NCBI RefSeq assembly: GCF_005938105.1
Contig: NZ_VCPE01000023.1
Coordinates: 1-56,692 of the forward strand
DNA from: Brucella haematophila
Lineage (GTDB): Bacteria; Pseudomonadota; Alphaproteobacteria; Rhizobiales; Rhizobiaceae
DNA length: 56,692 nt
Direction: 5' to 3'
Shown piece after piece: positions 11,115 through 17,535 of the stretch; within the stretch, counting starts at the first letter, position 1, and each line of letters starts with the position of its first letter. Made by a program: the position numbers and the translations under genes. Below the pieces are notes generated by a model, which worked only from the letters and a program-made list of their open reading frames with translations, did not search any database and was not told where the DNA came from.

Positions 11115-11238
11115 CATTTCCAGCCCCATGCGGGGCGCGGCGCTTGTTGAGATTTTGCCCAATGACTGCTAGATGCAGCGCAACATCTTCGCGGCGCGTA
11201 TTTGCGCGGCCCAACATTTCGCCATCACGAGTTTCTTC

Positions 11239-12816
11239 ATGCCTGCTGACAATCCCGTTTCCAAGCGCCGCACATTCGCGATTATCGCGCACCCGGACGC
11301 CGGTAAGACCACGCTGACCGAAAAGCTGCTGCTGTTTGGCGGCGCCATCCAGCTTGCCGGTGAAGTGAAGGCCAAGAAGGATCGCATCCAGACCCGTTCG
11401 GACTGGATGAACATCGAACGCGACCGCGGCATCTCGGTCGTCACCTCGGTGATGACCTTCGAATACAAGGACTGCATCTTCAACCTGCTCGATACGCCGG
11501 GCCACGAAGACTTCGCAGACGACACCTACCGCACGCTGACCGCCGTCGACAGCGCCGTCATGGTCATCGACGCCGCAAAGGGTATCGAGCCGCGCACGCT
11601 GAAGCTGTTCGAAGTCTGCCGCATGCGCGACATTCCAATCGTCACCTTCGTCAACAAGATGGACCGCGAAGCGCGCGATCCGCTCGAAATCCTCGACGAA
11701 ATCGAAGAAAAGCTGGCGCTCGACACGGCGCCTATCACCTGGCCTATCGGCTCGGGCAAGAGCTTTGCAGGCACGTTCGACCTGCATAACAATACAATGC
11801 GCCGTCAGGACAATGAAGAGCAGCCGACCAAGGTCAGCGGCCCGGAAGAAGCCGCCGCGCTGCTGCCTGAAAACGAGCGTGAAGCCTGGCTGGAAAATAC
11901 GGAACTGGCGCGCGGCGTTTGCCGTCCATTTGACCTTGCTTCCTTCCGCGAAGGGCACATGACGCCGGTCTATTTTGGTTCGGCGTTGAAGAATTACGGC
12001 GTGCGCGACCTGATCGAAGCCTTCTGCGATTTCGGCCCCTCGCCGCGCGACCAGCAGGCCGACACACGCATGGTCGGTTCCACCGAAGACAAGATGACCG
12101 GCTTCGTGTTCAAGATTCAGGCCAATATGGACCCGAACCACCGCGACCGCATCGCCTTCCTGCGCGTTTGCTCGGGCAAGCTGTCACGCGGCATGAAAGC
12201 CAAGCTGGTGCGCACCGGCAAGCCGATGAGCCTGTCTGCGCCGCAATTCTTCTTTGCGCGTTCGCGCCAGATCGCCGACGAAGCCTTTGCTGGCGACGTG
12301 GTCGGCATCCCGAACCACGGCACGCTGCGCATCGGCGACACGCTGACCGAGGGCGAGGATATCCTGTTCCGTGGCGTGCCGAACTTCGCGCCGGAAATTC
12401 TGCGCCGCGTGCGCCTTGACGATGCAATGAAGGCCAAGAAGCTGCGCGAAGCGCTGCAACAGATGGCCGAAGAAGGCGTCGTGCAGCTGTTCGTGCCCGA
12501 TGACGGTTCTCCGGCGATTGTCGGTGTCGTTGGCGCGCTCCAGATCGACGTTCTGACCGAGCGTCTGAAAGTGGAATATTCGCTGCCGGTCGGCTTTGAA
12601 ATGTCGCGCTTCTCGGTCTGCCGGTGGATTACGGCAAATGATCCGGCCGAACTCGACCGCTTCGTCGCATCGCATCGCGCTGACATTGCGCATGATCTCG
12701 ACAACGATCCCGTGTTTCTGGCGCAAAACGGCTTTTCGCTCAATTACGAAGCCGAGCGCTGGAAGAATATCCGCTTTGCGACCATCAAGGACTATCAAGT
12801 CCGCGACAAGGCCTGA
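11239..12816 (+). CDS. prfC: Peptide chain release factor 3
   Basis: A 525-residue translational GTPase that releases class-1 release factors from the ribosome. The N-terminus MPADNPVSKRRTFAIIAH aligns well with known RF3 starts, so ATG 11239 is preferred over the earlier in-frame ATG at 11173. G motifs seen: AHPDAGKTT, LDTPGHEDF and VNKMDREARDP. The C-terminal domain (RFATIKDYQVRDKA) is complete. The next gene, an aminoglycoside phosphotransferase, starts only 14 bases after the stop. Confidence 0.95.
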   Translation: MPADNPVSKRRTFAIIAHPDAGKTTLTEKLLLFGGAIQLAGEVKAKKDRIQTRSDWMNIERDRGISVVTSVMTFEYKDCIFNLLDTPGHEDFADDTYRTLTAVDSAVMVIDAAKGIEPRTLKLFEVCRMRDIPIVTFVNKMDREARDPLEILDEIEEKLALDTAPITWPIGSGKSFAGTFDLHNNTMRRQDNEEQPTKVSGPEEAAALLPENEREAWLENTELARGVCRPFDLASFREGHMTPVYFGSALKNYGVRDLIEAFCDFGPSPRDQQADTRMVGSTEDKMTGFVFKIQANMDPNHRDRIAFLRVCSGKLSRGMKAKLVRTGKPMSLSAPQFFFARSRQIADEAFAGDVVGIPNHGTLRIGDTLTEGEDILFRGVPNFAPEILRRVRLDDAMKAKKLREALQQMAEEGVVQLFVPDDGSPAIVGVVGALQIDVLTERLKVEYSLPVGFEMSRFSVCRWITANDPAELDRFVASHRADIAHDLDNDPVFLAQNGFSLNYEAERWKNIRFATIKDYQVRDKA

Positions 12817-12830
12817 TGCGGTAGGGTGCT

Positions 12831-13631
12831 ATGACCGATCCTGTTCTGGCTGCTCTCGATCTGCCCGATGCCATGCTGCATCGGCTTGCCGGTTACAGCA
12901 GCCAGCAGGACGAGCTTGGCCGCTCGACCGCCAATGTCCTGCTACTCGATCATGATGCGCACGAACCGCTGGTTCTGAAAATCGAACCGGCAAGCACGGT
13001 CAGCGAACTGGCCGATGAGTGCACCCGGCTTGAATGGCTCTCAGCGCAAGGGCTGCCCTGCCCGAGGGTCGTCGTTTTTGAGACGATGGACGACCGCCAT
13101 TTTCTCCTGATGACGCGCCTTGCCGGGTCCGACCTCGCGTCATCTGTCGGCACTCTCACGCCTGACCGGATCGTCGCCATTCTCGCGACGGCCTTGAAGG
13201 CGCTGCACAGCGTCGACCCCGCTGCCTGTCCTTTCAACCACCGGCTGGCGCACCGCATTGAACATGCCCGCAAACGCGTTGAAGCGGGCGCGGTTGATGA
13301 AGATGATTTCGATGATGAGCACGAAGGCCGCAGCGCCGAAGATTTGTTCTCCGAACTATGCCGCCTGAAACCGTCGCAGGAAGATGTTGTCGTCACCCAT
13401 GGCGACGCCTGCCTGCCAAATTTCATGGCCAGCGACGGCGCTTTCACCGGCTTTATCGACTGCGGCAGGCTCGGCCTTGCAGACCGCCATCAGGATCTGG
13501 GACTGGCCTGCTGGAGCATCCGCTACAATCTCGGCGACGAATGGGTGAAACCTTTCCTCGGCCTCTATGGCGCAACGACCATCGATGACGCCATGATCGC
13601 CTATTACCGCCTGCTGGACGAGTTTTTCTAG
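12831..13631 (+). CDS. Aminoglycoside 3'-phosphotransferase, APH(3') family
   Basis: A 266-residue kinase of the length expected for APH(3') enzymes, which phosphorylate the 3'-hydroxyl of kanamycin/neomycin-type drugs. Key residues are in place: Lys50 in VLKIEP, the catalytic loop HGDACLPN (His190, Asp192, Asn197), the metal-binding [16 protein letters not shown] (Asp210), and a C-terminus ending LLDEFF as in this family. The start has AGGG nearby. GC content matches its neighbours and no mobile element flanks it, so it looks like a resident chromosomal gene carried behind prfC. Real drug specificity cannot be read from sequence. Confidence 0.88.
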
Positions 13632-13644
13632 ACAGCCAGCTTCA

Positions 13645-15036
13645 TCATTGCGCGTCGAGCAGCCGTTCGGCAATTTTCGCAGCCAGCTTTTCGGCCACTT
13701 CGCCTTTGCTCATTTCCGGCCATTCCTCAATGCCGGAGCGGCTTAAAATCCGCACGCGGTTGTGGTCGCCGCCCATGACGCTGCTGCCATCCGAGCCAAA
13801 GGAAACATCGTTGGCGACGATCCAGTCCGCGCCCTTTTTCTCAAGCTTGGCTCTCGCATTGTCGGCCACATCCTGCGTTTCGGCTGCAAAGCCGACCACC
13901 AGACCGGGGCGCTTGTCGCTATGCCCAACTCCAGCCAGAATGTCGGGGTTCTCGACCATGGCAAGCGTCGGAGCGCCTTCTCCGGGCTTCTTCTTGATTT
14001 TCTGTCCCGCTTCATTGGCCGTGCGCCAGTCGGCAACGGCTGCCACCATGATCGCCGCATCGGCGGGCAGATGTCGTTCCACGGCAGCCTGCATTTCCCG
14101 CGCCGTCTCGACATGAATGACATCGACGCCTTCAGGGTCGGCAAGAGTGACCGGACCGGACACCAGATGCACAGTTGCACCCAGTCGCGCCAGTGCTGCT
14201 GCGATGGCATGGCCTTGCTTGCCCGACGAGCGGTTGGCAATGTAGCGCACCGGGTCGATCGGCTCATGCGTCGGCCCGGACGTCATGACGATGGATTTTC
14301 CAGCCAGTGGCAGCGCACGCGGAGACAACAGCGCTTCCACTGCCGCCACGATGGCCAGCGGCTCGCTCATCCGGCCCGTTCCCGCCTCGCCGCTTTCCGC
14401 CATTTCACCCTTCTCAGGGCCAATGAAATGCACGCCGTCCTTTTCCAGTGTCAGACGATTGCGCCGGGTCGCCGGGTTGTCCCACATGGCCGGGTTCATG
14501 GCAGGCGCAATCAGAACCGGAACCTTGCGCGCCAGCAGAACGGCGCTGGCCAAATCGTCAGCCAGACCATTGGCCATCTTGGCCATCAGATCGGCGGTCG
14601 CAGGCGCAACCACGATCAGATCGGCATCACGCGCCAGTCGGATATGCCCGACATCCTGCTCATCCTCACGCGAGAACAGATCAGTGAAAACATGATCGGC
14701 AGAAACTGCACCGATGGTCAGTGGCGTCACAAATTGCTGTGCAGCAGCGGTCATCAAGGGGCGAACCTGTGCGCCACGCTCGCGCAAACGACGGATCAGG
14801 TCGGGCGTCTTATAGGCAGCAATACCGCCACCGATGATGAGCAGAACGCGCTTGTCCGCGAGTGACGCACCAACCTTGCTCTGAACAGCCGACGCAGGCG
14901 TAACCTGCGCAGTTTCTTCCAGCCCGGTCAGAAGAAGCCGTGCTTCCTCTTCCATGGAGCGCCCGTTGCGCGCAGCACGCATACGCAGCTTTTCCTTGGC
15001 GGCATCGTCAAGATTGCGGATAGTGATACTGGCCAT
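13645..15036 (-). CDS. coaBC: CoaBC with an N-terminal FitA-like ribbon-helix-helix domain
   Basis: A 463-residue bifunctional enzyme of coenzyme A synthesis: phosphopantothenate-cysteine ligase plus phosphopantothenoylcysteine decarboxylase. Residues 1 to about 40 (MASITIRNLDDAAKEKL, then RAARNGRSMEEEARLLL) form an unexpected ribbon-helix-helix DNA-binding domain like the FitA antitoxin. A linker leads to the flavodoxin-like CoaC domain from about residue 62 (KRVLLIIGGGIAAYK, with PAMNPAMWDNP). CoaB follows (TSGPTHEPIDPVRYIANRSSG). The substrate-clamp segment reads ESGEAGTGRM, with Ser where I recall Cys in E. coli. The ATG at 15036 abuts a perfect inverted repeat. ubiB lies 74 bases upstream on the same strand. 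Confidence 0.92.
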   Translation of the reverse strand: MASITIRNLDDAAKEKLRMRAARNGRSMEEEARLLLTGLEETAQVTPASAVQSKVGASLADKRVLLIIGGGIAAYKTPDLIRRLRERGAQVRPLMTAAAQQFVTPLTIGAVSADHVFTDLFSREDEQDVGHIRLARDADLIVVAPATADLMAKMANGLADDLASAVLLARKVPVLIAPAMNPAMWDNPATRRNRLTLEKDGVHFIGPEKGEMAESGEAGTGRMSEPLAIVAAVEALLSPRALPLAGKSIVMTSGPTHEPIDPVRYIANRSSGKQGHAIAAALARLGATVHLVSGPVTLADPEGVDVIHVETAREMQAAVERHLPADAAIMVAAVADWRTANEAGQKIKKKPGEGAPTLAMVENPDILAGVGHSDKRPGLVVGFAAETQDVADNARAKLEKKGADWIVANDVSFGSDGSSVMGGDHNRVRILSRSGIEEWPEMSKGEVAEKLAAKIAERLLDAQ

Positions 15037-15069
15037 TTGATTGCACCGGCTTATTGCAAGTGCAATCAA
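15037..15069. promoter_or_regulatory. Candidate operator: perfect 9-bp inverted repeat abutting the coaBC start codon
   Basis: TTGATTGCA at 15037-15045 and TGCAATCAA at 15061-15069 are exact inverted repeats separated by 15 bases. The spacer holds a further half-site (ATTGCA at 15053-15058). The element begins on the base next to the coaBC start codon (minus strand), where bound protein could block initiation. Because coaBC itself begins with a ribbon-helix-helix domain, autorepression is the obvious hypothesis. FitA-type antitoxins bind paired inverted half-sites of similar look. Confidence 0.6.
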
Positions 15070-15110
15070 TGAAATCACTTTAATGGCGATTTGTCACTTT
15101 AAAAGTGCTT

Positions 15111-16694
15111 CTACAGCCAGATATAGAGCTTGATTGCTATCGCAGCCAGCGCAATTGCAATCACCACCTGTGCGATGCGGCCCCAGCGGGAATGCTTGGC
15201 TTCGGCGCGACCGATGGCTTCCGCCGTGGCAGCATCGAAGCGCAAGCCATTGGCAGCCATATCATCCAGCGCTACCGAAACACGTTCCACACGCGCCACC
15301 AGCTCTGGCGTCTTGCGGGTGAAATGCAGCAGCGCATAGGCGCTGTCCTTCGCGTCGAGCAACATGCCCTGCGGGCCGAGGTTTTTGCGAATCCAGTCGC
15401 CGACAACCGGCTCCGCTGCTTTCCACATATTGAAATGCGGATCGAGCGTGCGCGACACGCCTTCAACCACAACCATGGTTTTCTGGAGCATCAGGAGTTC
15501 GGGCCGGGTCTCCATGTCGAAAAGCTCGGTCACTTCGAACAGCAGTGTCAGCAGCTTGGCCATGGAAATGGTTTCCGCCGGCTGGCCGTGGATCGGCTCA
15601 CCAATGGCGCGGATGGCCTGCGCAAAGCTTGCCACGTCGTGCGTATGCGGCACGTAGCCTGCCTCGAAATGCACTTCCGCCACGCGCATATAATCGCGTG
15701 TGATGAAGCCATAGAGAATCTCGGCAAGGAAGCGGCGCTGCTGCTTGTTGAGCCGCCCGGTAATGCCGAAATCGACCGCAACGATGATACCCTGCGGATC
15801 GACGAACAGATTGCCCGGATGCATGTCGGCATGGAAAAAGCCGTCGCGCAGCGTGTGGCGCAGGAAAGACTGGATCAGCGTTTCAGCAAGCTTCTTCAGA
15901 TCGAAGCCAGCTGCAGCCAGAGCCGAAACATCTGACATCTTGGTGCCATCGATCCATTCCAGCGTCAGCACATCGCGACCGGTGCGTTCCCAGTCTACCT
16001 GCGGAACGCGGAAACCTTCATCGCCCTTGATGTTTTCGGCAATCTCGGAAAGCGCTGCCGCTTCCAGTCGCAGATCCATCTCGATGCGCGTGGTCTGTTG
16101 CAGCGTTTCGACAACCTGAACCGGACGCAGGCGGCGCGTGAAGGGCACATGGCGCTCCTGCATGCGCGCAACCATGTAGAAACCTTCAAGATCGCGGGCA
16201 AAACGCTGGCGAACGCCGGGGCGGATCACTTTGACCGCGACTTTCGTCGGCTTGCCGTCCTTCATGACTTCCGCCGGATGCACCTGCGCCATCGACGCCG
16301 CCGCTATCGGCGCATCGAACTGCAGGTAAAGATCGTCGATCTTGCGACCGAGCGACCCTTCGATACCCGCAACCGCATCAGCCTGCGGAAAATAATCGAG
16401 GCGATCCTGCAAAAGCTCCAGATCGGCAGCTACATCGCGCCCGACAATATCGGGGCGTGTGGCCAGAAACTGGCCGAGCTTCACATAGGATGGGCCAAGC
16501 TTGTTCATCGCTCGGGACATGCGTTCTGAACGCTGCATGTGCCGCGCACGCGGGCGCGCCAGCATGCCTGCAATCTTGTGGCCGAAAGCCGGAAGACCGG
16601 AAAGTCCTTCCACGGGAAGCGCACTGATCACGCCTTCACGCGTCAAAATCCATCCGGCGCGCGCCAACCGGAAAGCGGCGGAAAGATTACTCAT
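15111..16694 (-). CDS. ubiB: Ubiquinone biosynthesis kinase-like protein UbiB
   Basis: A 527-residue member of the ABC1/UbiB atypical kinase family needed for ubiquinone synthesis, acting at the inner membrane. Visible marks: KLGQFLATRPDI (the KxGQ motif), the alanine-rich loop PIAAASMAQVH that replaces a normal P-loop, the DFGITGRL metal-binding motif, and two C-terminal hydrophobic segments. ATG 16694 begins MSNLSAAFRLAR and is preferred over the longer open frame. It lies 49 bases after ubiE on the same strand and precedes coaBC, the usual alphaproteobacterial order. Confidence 0.93.
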   Translation of the reverse strand: MSNLSAAFRLARAGWILTREGVISALPVEGLSGLPAFGHKIAGMLARPRARHMQRSERMSRAMNKLGPSYVKLGQFLATRPDIVGRDVAADLELLQDRLDYFPQADAVAGIEGSLGRKIDDLYLQFDAPIAAASMAQVHPAEVMKDGKPTKVAVKVIRPGVRQRFARDLEGFYMVARMQERHVPFTRRLRPVQVVETLQQTTRIEMDLRLEAAALSEIAENIKGDEGFRVPQVDWERTGRDVLTLEWIDGTKMSDVSALAAAGFDLKKLAETLIQSFLRHTLRDGFFHADMHPGNLFVDPQGIIVAVDFGITGRLNKQQRRFLAEILYGFITRDYMRVAEVHFEAGYVPHTHDVASFAQAIRAIGEPIHGQPAETISMAKLLTLLFEVTELFDMETRPELLMLQKTMVVVEGVSRTLDPHFNMWKAAEPVVGDWIRKNLGPQGMLLDAKDSAYALLHFTRKTPELVARVERVSVALDDMAANGLRFDAATAEAIGRAEAKHSRWGRIAQVVIAIALAAIAIKLYIWL

Positions 16695-16743
16695 GCGATA
16701 GTGCCCGCCCCTGCATCCAAGCCCGAATTCATGACAGGCATGA

Positions 16744-17535
16744 TCAAAGCTTCCAGCCCGAATGAAGCGCCGCAATACCGCCGGTGAAATTGCGATAGCT
16801 CACACGCTCGAAACCGGCGGTCTCGATCATGGCGGCGAAATCCTGCTGCTTGGGGAATTTGCGGATCGATTCGACCAGATAGCTGTAAGAATCCGCATCA
16901 CCGGTAATCATCTTGCCAATACGCGGAATGGCCTGAAACGACCACTGGTCATAGACCTTGTCGAGGATCGGCAATTCAACTTCGGAAAATTCGAGGCACA
17001 TGAACCGGCCGCCCGGCTTCAGCACGCGATAGGCTTCCGACAGGGCCTTGTCGATATGCGGCACATTGCGAATGCCGAAGGCAATCGTATAGGCGTCGAA
17101 ACTGTTATCCTCGAAGGGCAGTTCCTCGGCATTGGCTTCAACGAATTCGAGATTGTCGGCAAGGCCTTTCTTGATCGCGCGCTCGCGACCGACACCCAGC
17201 ATCGAGCCGTTGATATCGAGAATGGTCACATGCGCCTGACGGCCCGAAGCCTCGACAATGCGAAAGGCGATATCGCCAGTGCCGCCAGCCACATCAAGCG
17301 ACGTCCAGCCCGGGCGCTTCGACGGAGCGAGCCAGGCGATCATCGCATCTTTCCAGACGCGGTGCATGCCTGCCGACATGAGATCGTTCATCACGTCGTA
17401 TTTGTTGGCGACCTTATGGAAAACGTCGTTGACCAGGGTCTGCTTTTCGTTTTCGTCAACCGACTGGAAGCCGAATGAATGCTCCATGCCGCCTTTTGCG
17501 CCCACGCGGTCCGCATTGCCGTTCTGCTGGCTCAT
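16744..17535 (-). CDS. ubiE: Demethylmenaquinone/ubiquinone C-methyltransferase UbiE
   Basis: A 263-residue SAM-dependent methyltransferase that methylates the quinone ring in ubiquinone synthesis. SAM-binding motif [13 protein letters not shown] is near residue 82. UbiE signatures [19 protein letters not shown] and [17 protein letters not shown] are intact. It is the first gene of the ubiE-ubiB-coaBC series and is divergent from upp. The intergenic region contains a small palindrome (CGAAAA-cga-TTTTCG, 17562-17576), noted but not assigned. Confidence 0.95.

Follow-up and report, generated by a model that had tools for sequence, protein, structure and literature searches.

The stretch of DNA analysed here (the window) comprises 56,692 nucleotides of Brucella haematophila, positions 1 to 56,692 of contig NZ_VCPE01000023.1, and carries on its minus strand a gene in which the coenzyme A (CoA) biosynthesis enzyme CoaBC is preceded by an antitoxin-like ribbon-helix-helix (RHH) domain. 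The gene (13645..15036) starts with the ATG at 15036 and encodes 463 amino acids in a single uninterrupted frame. Residues 2-37 (14926..15033) match the Pfam family FitA-like_RHH (PF22513) with 63.7 bits, against a gathering cut-off of 27. They are followed by a linker (residues 38-61; 14854..14925), by CoaC, the phosphopantothenoylcysteine decarboxylase (Flavoprotein domain, residues 62-234; 14335..14853), and by CoaB, the phosphopantothenate-cysteine ligase (DFP domain, residues 244-430; 13747..14307). The enzyme part is full length, as TIGR00521 (coaBC_dfp, NCBIfam) covers residues 60-455 with 409.8 bits against a cut-off of 219.7. The original prediction, made from the letters of the sequence, had proposed a FitA-like N-terminus read in one frame with a complete CoaC-CoaB enzyme, and the reading frame, its start and the profile matches bear this out. 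It made no reference to the operator-like repeat (15037-15077), to the toxin-antitoxin genes that relatives carry at the corresponding place, or to the breadth of the fusion's distribution.

A profile built from seven fused N-termini (hereafter A1) matches the structures of FitA, 2h1o (E-value 3.8e-6) and 2bsq (7.2e-6); the next matches are Mnt and, at lower strength, Arc. The solved structure nearest in sequence to the enzyme part is Mycobacterium smegmatis CoaBC (6tgv; residues 60-455, E-value 2e-77). Within the CoaC part, residues 212-222 (MAESGEAGTGR) contain no cysteine, and neither does the M. smegmatis protein in the alignment; Escherichia coli CoaC presumably has one at this place. H131, N181, K346, K348 and K349 are invariant in 28 fused sequences, and we take the first two to be CoaBC motif residues. 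A K-X-K-K motif of CoaBC is named in PMC7794376. The 5.5-Mb genome contains one DFP match and one FitA-like RHH match, both in the fusion gene. Thus, the sole CoaBC found there is the fused form; a second copy of coaBC was sought with the DFP profile and none was found in the genome.

The sequence directly before the gene contains several repeated elements. A perfect inverted repeat, TTGATTGCAC-N13-GTGCAATCAA (15037..15069, minus strand), abuts the start codon and constitutes a candidate operator, conserved in 17 Brucellaceae-type upstream regions. One base upstream of the repeat lies a third element that resembles a half-site, TGATTTCA (15070..15077, minus strand), itself one base from TGATTGCA, with seven of its eight positions invariant in the 17 sequences, and GTGACA at 15092..15097 (minus strand) is a possible -35 element. 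In this alignment, the invariant non-coding columns are mostly those of the repeat elements; the rest are the TGA of the possible -35 element and two single bases. The spaced pair TGATTGCA-N0..16-TGCAATCA occurs at a single place in the whole genome, before coaBC, and its backward control occurs nowhere. Consequently, the spaced pair marks no regulon beyond coaBC in this genome, looser motifs not having been searched for.

The N-terminal extension has the properties of translated protein. The ratio of nonsynonymous to synonymous substitution (dN/dS), determined for the window and 42 fused loci from L088-L131, is 0.080 for the RHH codons and 0.088 for the 150 codons that open the catalytic part (903 non-independent pairs, 43 sequences), values that are rough because synonymous sites are near saturation (proportion of synonymous differences, pS, 0.66). 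In addition, T5, R7, L17, R18, S27 and E29 are identical in all 103 fused loci compared. The RHH domain is under purifying selection comparable to that on the enzyme. In the window gene, the stretch that begins at codon 38 and ends five codons inside the catalytic part contains no ATG, GTG or TTG, so that a start past the RHH domain would require a rarer start codon; such a start is accordingly disfavoured for this gene. Across the fused genes, the same stretch lacks all three codons in 28 of 103 and lacks ATG in 75. A frameshift, a mis-assembly or a one-off read-through can be rejected, as the fusion is found in at least 77 of 297 genomes of the family.

This family count (29 among the first loci and 48 of 52 further regions) is complemented by searches with A1 at wider range. 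Within the order, the profile matches inside a CoaBC frame in 16 of 297 genomes, from three families. Among 289 genomes of the class (E-values up to 1e-8), the sole RHH match in a frame of at least 450 amino acids is that of the window, and among 398 genomes of the phylum, which include some already covered by the other searches (E-values up to 1e-10), no fusion was found outside the order, with G361, G1090 and G1183, which belong to the order, left out. Among named organisms, Ochrobactrum and species of the genus Brucella match best, with 97% identity to Rhizobiales isolate AFS001111 and 96% to Ochrobactrum sp. RH2CCR150. The 80 named loci, collected in a search biased toward fused loci because one of its six patterns lies in the RHH domain, comprise 63 fused, four with separate RHH and PIN genes before coaBC, one with a separate RHH gene and 12 with neither. 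Many relatives of Brucella that live in soil or with plants carry the fusion: fused named loci include those of Ochrobactrum, Brucella, Falsochrobactrum, Pseudochrobactrum, Phyllobacterium, Hoeflea, Nitratireductor, Mesorhizobium and Bartonella, while loci with neither gene include those of Rhizobium, Ensifer, Sinorhizobium, Neorhizobium, Paenochrobactrum and Brucella daejeonensis. In the last of these (L108, 2465-2500), the RHH domain, the linker and the exact half-sites are all missing together, and the start of coaBC lies about 30 bp past the ubiB stop codon. For Brucella ovis, a flavoproteome study lists CoaBC with its Flavoprotein domain at residues 7-180 (PMC9045290), which leaves no room for the extension as annotated. 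On a phylogenetic tree, the fused label requires 11 changes, eight of them being forced by well-supported branches, which implies several gains, losses or transfers. One fused record, titled Bacillus subtilis SK6B4 (L131), carries a Pseudochrobactrum-like coaBC locus; the assembly is probably mislabelled or contaminated.

The upstream half-sites accompany the fusion. Exact TGATTGCA or TGCAATCA occurs within 150 bp of 98 of 103 fused loci and of none of 32 unfused ones, a count that can include the terminal part of ubiB (GTG ATT GCA) and was therefore repeated within 75 bp. At this distance, 111 of 127 distinct fused upstream regions contain an exact half-site (2.9% of shuffled sequences), 78 of them two or more, compared with none of 31 unfused regions, in which fewer chance matches are expected given a GC content of 0.63 versus 0.40 in fused ones. 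Half-sites are also found within 75 bp in three of 11 loci with the order antitoxin-toxin-coaBC and in 16 of 38 standalone FitA-like antitoxins elsewhere. A 17-bp palindrome, TGA....N....TCA, is found within 150 bp in 40 of 127 fused, none of 32 unfused, five of 11 antitoxin-toxin-coaBC and seven of 38 other loci. A comparison of half-site and fusion in independent pairs, drawn from a FastTree phylogeny of 147 catalytic domains, gives a mean of 6.5 of eight pairs going the same way and 0.2 the opposite way (median p 0.03), which is a modest test. The spaced pair was also sought in 54 other genomes. Of the 39 fused ones, 12 contain it, as does one (G322) of the 15 that have no A1 match. It stands just before the RHH start in 11 of these 12 fused genomes (G411, G534, G479, G581, G333, G426, G334, G035, G112, G270 and G143), with a second one elsewhere in G534; in the remaining genome, G433, it lies on another contig. 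Fused genomes without the spaced pair show, by eye, other half-site arrangements.

The same locus harbours toxin-antitoxin genes in related bacteria. The 158 coaBC loci, with several genomes represented twice, comprise 113 fusions, 12 loci in which a FitA-type RHH gene stands apart together with a PIN gene, one with a separate RHH gene alone and 32 with neither. The 12 RHH and PIN pairs, from 11 distinct genomes or records of Hyphomicrobiales, stand directly before an unfused coaBC, and in L050 and L055 the PIN stop codon overlaps the coaBC start by four bases. Pfam searches of six proteins identified three toxins as PIN, two antitoxins as FitA-like RHH, and the fused protein of L134 as RHH, Flavoprotein and DFP. 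The A1 matches in the order number 84, of which 16 are fused; at least eight of the other 68, in seven genomes, lie at most 800 bp upstream of coaBC on the same strand, for which we estimate a chance expectation of about 0.01, the A1 query itself being built from coaBC-linked domains. L039 (G209) resembles, by eye, the antitoxin that precedes coaBC in L051, of the same genus. Six of the 113 fused loci have a further RHH gene upstream, three of them with a PIN gene as well. In these three (L079, L084 and L133), coaBC is already fused to an RHH domain and yet has the separate FitA-type pair upstream, which looks like repeated capture of modules at one place.

The best explanation of these observations, to which we assign a probability of roughly three in four, is that a former FitA-type module beside coaBC lost its toxin and that its antitoxin RHH became an N-terminal autorepressor of CoaBC, acting through the upstream half-sites. 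A FitAB-like module would once have occupied the ubiB-coaBC gap. Loss of the PIN toxin and, mostly, of the toxin-binding tail of the antitoxin would have followed, and the antitoxin frame would have run into coaBC; we infer this direction, with the module first and the fusion later. RHH proteins contact DNA through their N-terminal strand, and the motif preceding coaBC is probably bound by the RHH part of the fusion, to judge from the sequence comparisons. Several RHH dimers, joined via the CoaBC oligomer, would occupy half-sites of the TGATTGCA type at promoter and gene start, and the bound fusion would repress coaBC, so that the fused enzyme may control its own production through negative feedback on enzyme amount. 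The linker varies in length (17-60 residues across fused proteins), which points to loose tethering and to regulation through the amount of protein instead of tight allostery.

FitA itself, from the FitAB system of Neisseria gonorrhoeae, shares with the fusion the RHH family (PF22513; 2h1o and 2bsq) and aligned TIR and G-R-S-x-E stretches. In other Hyphomicrobiales, a relative is found beside a PIN toxin at this locus, whereas the RHH domain of the window is fused to CoaBC, without an adjacent toxin and without the tail motif. FitA has its operator upstream of its own gene, and the fusion likewise has a candidate operator there. PMC3920265 describes FitA as binding DNA through its RHH domain, FitB as promoting binding by stabilising the complex, and FitAB as occupying a 36-bp DNA segment. 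In the fusion, the enzyme oligomer would take the stabilising role held by the toxin in FitAB; mycobacterial CoaBC is a dodecamer with CoaC at its core, according to PMC7794376. It is conceivable, if rather improbable, that the oligomer replaces the toxin as the RHH tether on the operator, that CoA or acyl-CoA at the CoaB allosteric site tunes assembly, giving CoA feedback on the transcription of its own pathway, and that capture took place perhaps several times at the ubiB-coaBC gap. Ordinary CoaBC (TIGR00521; 6tgv) has the full CoaC and CoaB in common with the fusion, which differs from it in the RHH domain and linker in front and in the operator-like repeat at the start codon.

Several observations weigh against the autorepressor explanation, in addition to the roughness of the dN/dS values and the base composition of the unfused upstream regions. 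A sigma-70 promoter scan of the upstream region gave no match. Exact half-sites are missing within 75 bp from 16 of 127 distinct fused upstream regions, and the arrangement of half-sites varies: the spaced pair is missing from 27 of the 39 fused genomes and turns up in G322, where no RHH match was found. Under looser half-site scoring, 4.3 of the eight independent pairs go the same way and none the opposite way (median p 0.125). The Pseudochrobactrum-type fused loci L202, L130 and L131 contain no TGATTGCA sites and have instead inverted AGAGCATT/AATGCTCT, possibly a changed operator. Finally, the 11 changes on the tree cannot separate gain from loss.

An alternative that would add to autorepression and keep its DNA binding is that the fusion works as a trigger enzyme, ligand occupancy of CoaB or CoaC shifting the arrangement of the RHH domains and hence repression, as proline does in PutA, whose RHH domain is N-terminal. 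We consider this unlikely: the layout of RHH domain and enzyme does resemble that of PutA, but the variable linker suggests loose coupling. The original prediction had likened the protein to PutA and proposed that a metabolic enzyme with its own DNA-binding domain could sense CoA state and regulate transcription. The likeness holds for the layout, with the RHH domain at the enzyme N-terminus, and action on transcription is favoured by the conserved operator-like sites that track the fusion and by selection on the RHH domain; no sign of ligand control was seen, and sensing of phosphopantothenate, cytidine triphosphate or flavin mononucleotide found no support. PutA, BirA and NadR are, like RHH-CoaBC, metabolic enzymes with a DNA-binding domain in the same chain, from which the fusion differs in its unrelated enzyme, its apparent toxin-antitoxin origin and the lack of any sign of ligand control. 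All three are known trigger enzymes, and the five that PMC8249747 names for E. coli do not include CoaBC.

It is far less probable that the RHH domain still serves as an antitoxin in trans, neutralising or co-repressing with PIN toxins elsewhere in the genome. Three PIN matches exist in the genome, all on other contigs, and no PIN toxin stands beside the window coaBC, whose neighbours are ubiB-like and APH-family genes. The tail of FitA is its toxin-binding part, and a FitA-like tail motif is kept between RHH and CoaC in three of 103 fusions, all from Hoeflea (L132, L134 and L136); the separate RHH and PIN pairs just upstream of the fused gene in L079, L084 and L133 point the same way. Nevertheless, this motif is missing from 100 of the 103 fused proteins, that of the window among them, although the strict pattern, found in 22 of 51 standalone antitoxins, misses the other 29, and the only spaced operator-like pair of the genome is at coaBC. 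An inert remnant, that is, harmless read-through of a dead antitoxin, would agree with the patchy distribution, for example the lack of the RHH domain in the Brucellaceae loci L108, L127 and L155, but is very improbable in view of purifying selection like that on the enzyme and of the conserved upstream sites.

If the autorepressor reading is true, transcriptional control of an essential step of CoA synthesis sits in the enzyme itself, and the locus lets one follow, as is rarely possible, how a toxin-antitoxin module turns into a housekeeping regulator. Antitoxin, toxin and coaBC side by side (the presumed point of departure), fusions that keep a tail and the completed form all occur in living relatives. 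The case bears on the control of CoA synthesis in these bacteria and on the possible domestication of toxin-antitoxin modules as regulators. As trigger enzymes are already known, the new part is the different enzyme and the toxin-antitoxin origin of its DNA-binding domain. No report of a CoaBC-RHH fusion, of the decarboxylase fused to a DNA-binding domain or of a coaBC-antitoxin operon was found in the literature searched, subscription journals and public domain-architecture pages being outside the search.

The upstream neighbour of the fusion gene, which belongs to its context and not to the proposed device, is a ubiB-like ABC1 kinase gene (15111..16775, minus strand; PF03109, 243.6 bits). 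On the other side, a convergent gene (12831-13631, plus strand) encodes an APH-family phosphotransferase (PF01636, 142.1 bits) and is adjoined by the gene for release factor 3 (11173-12816).
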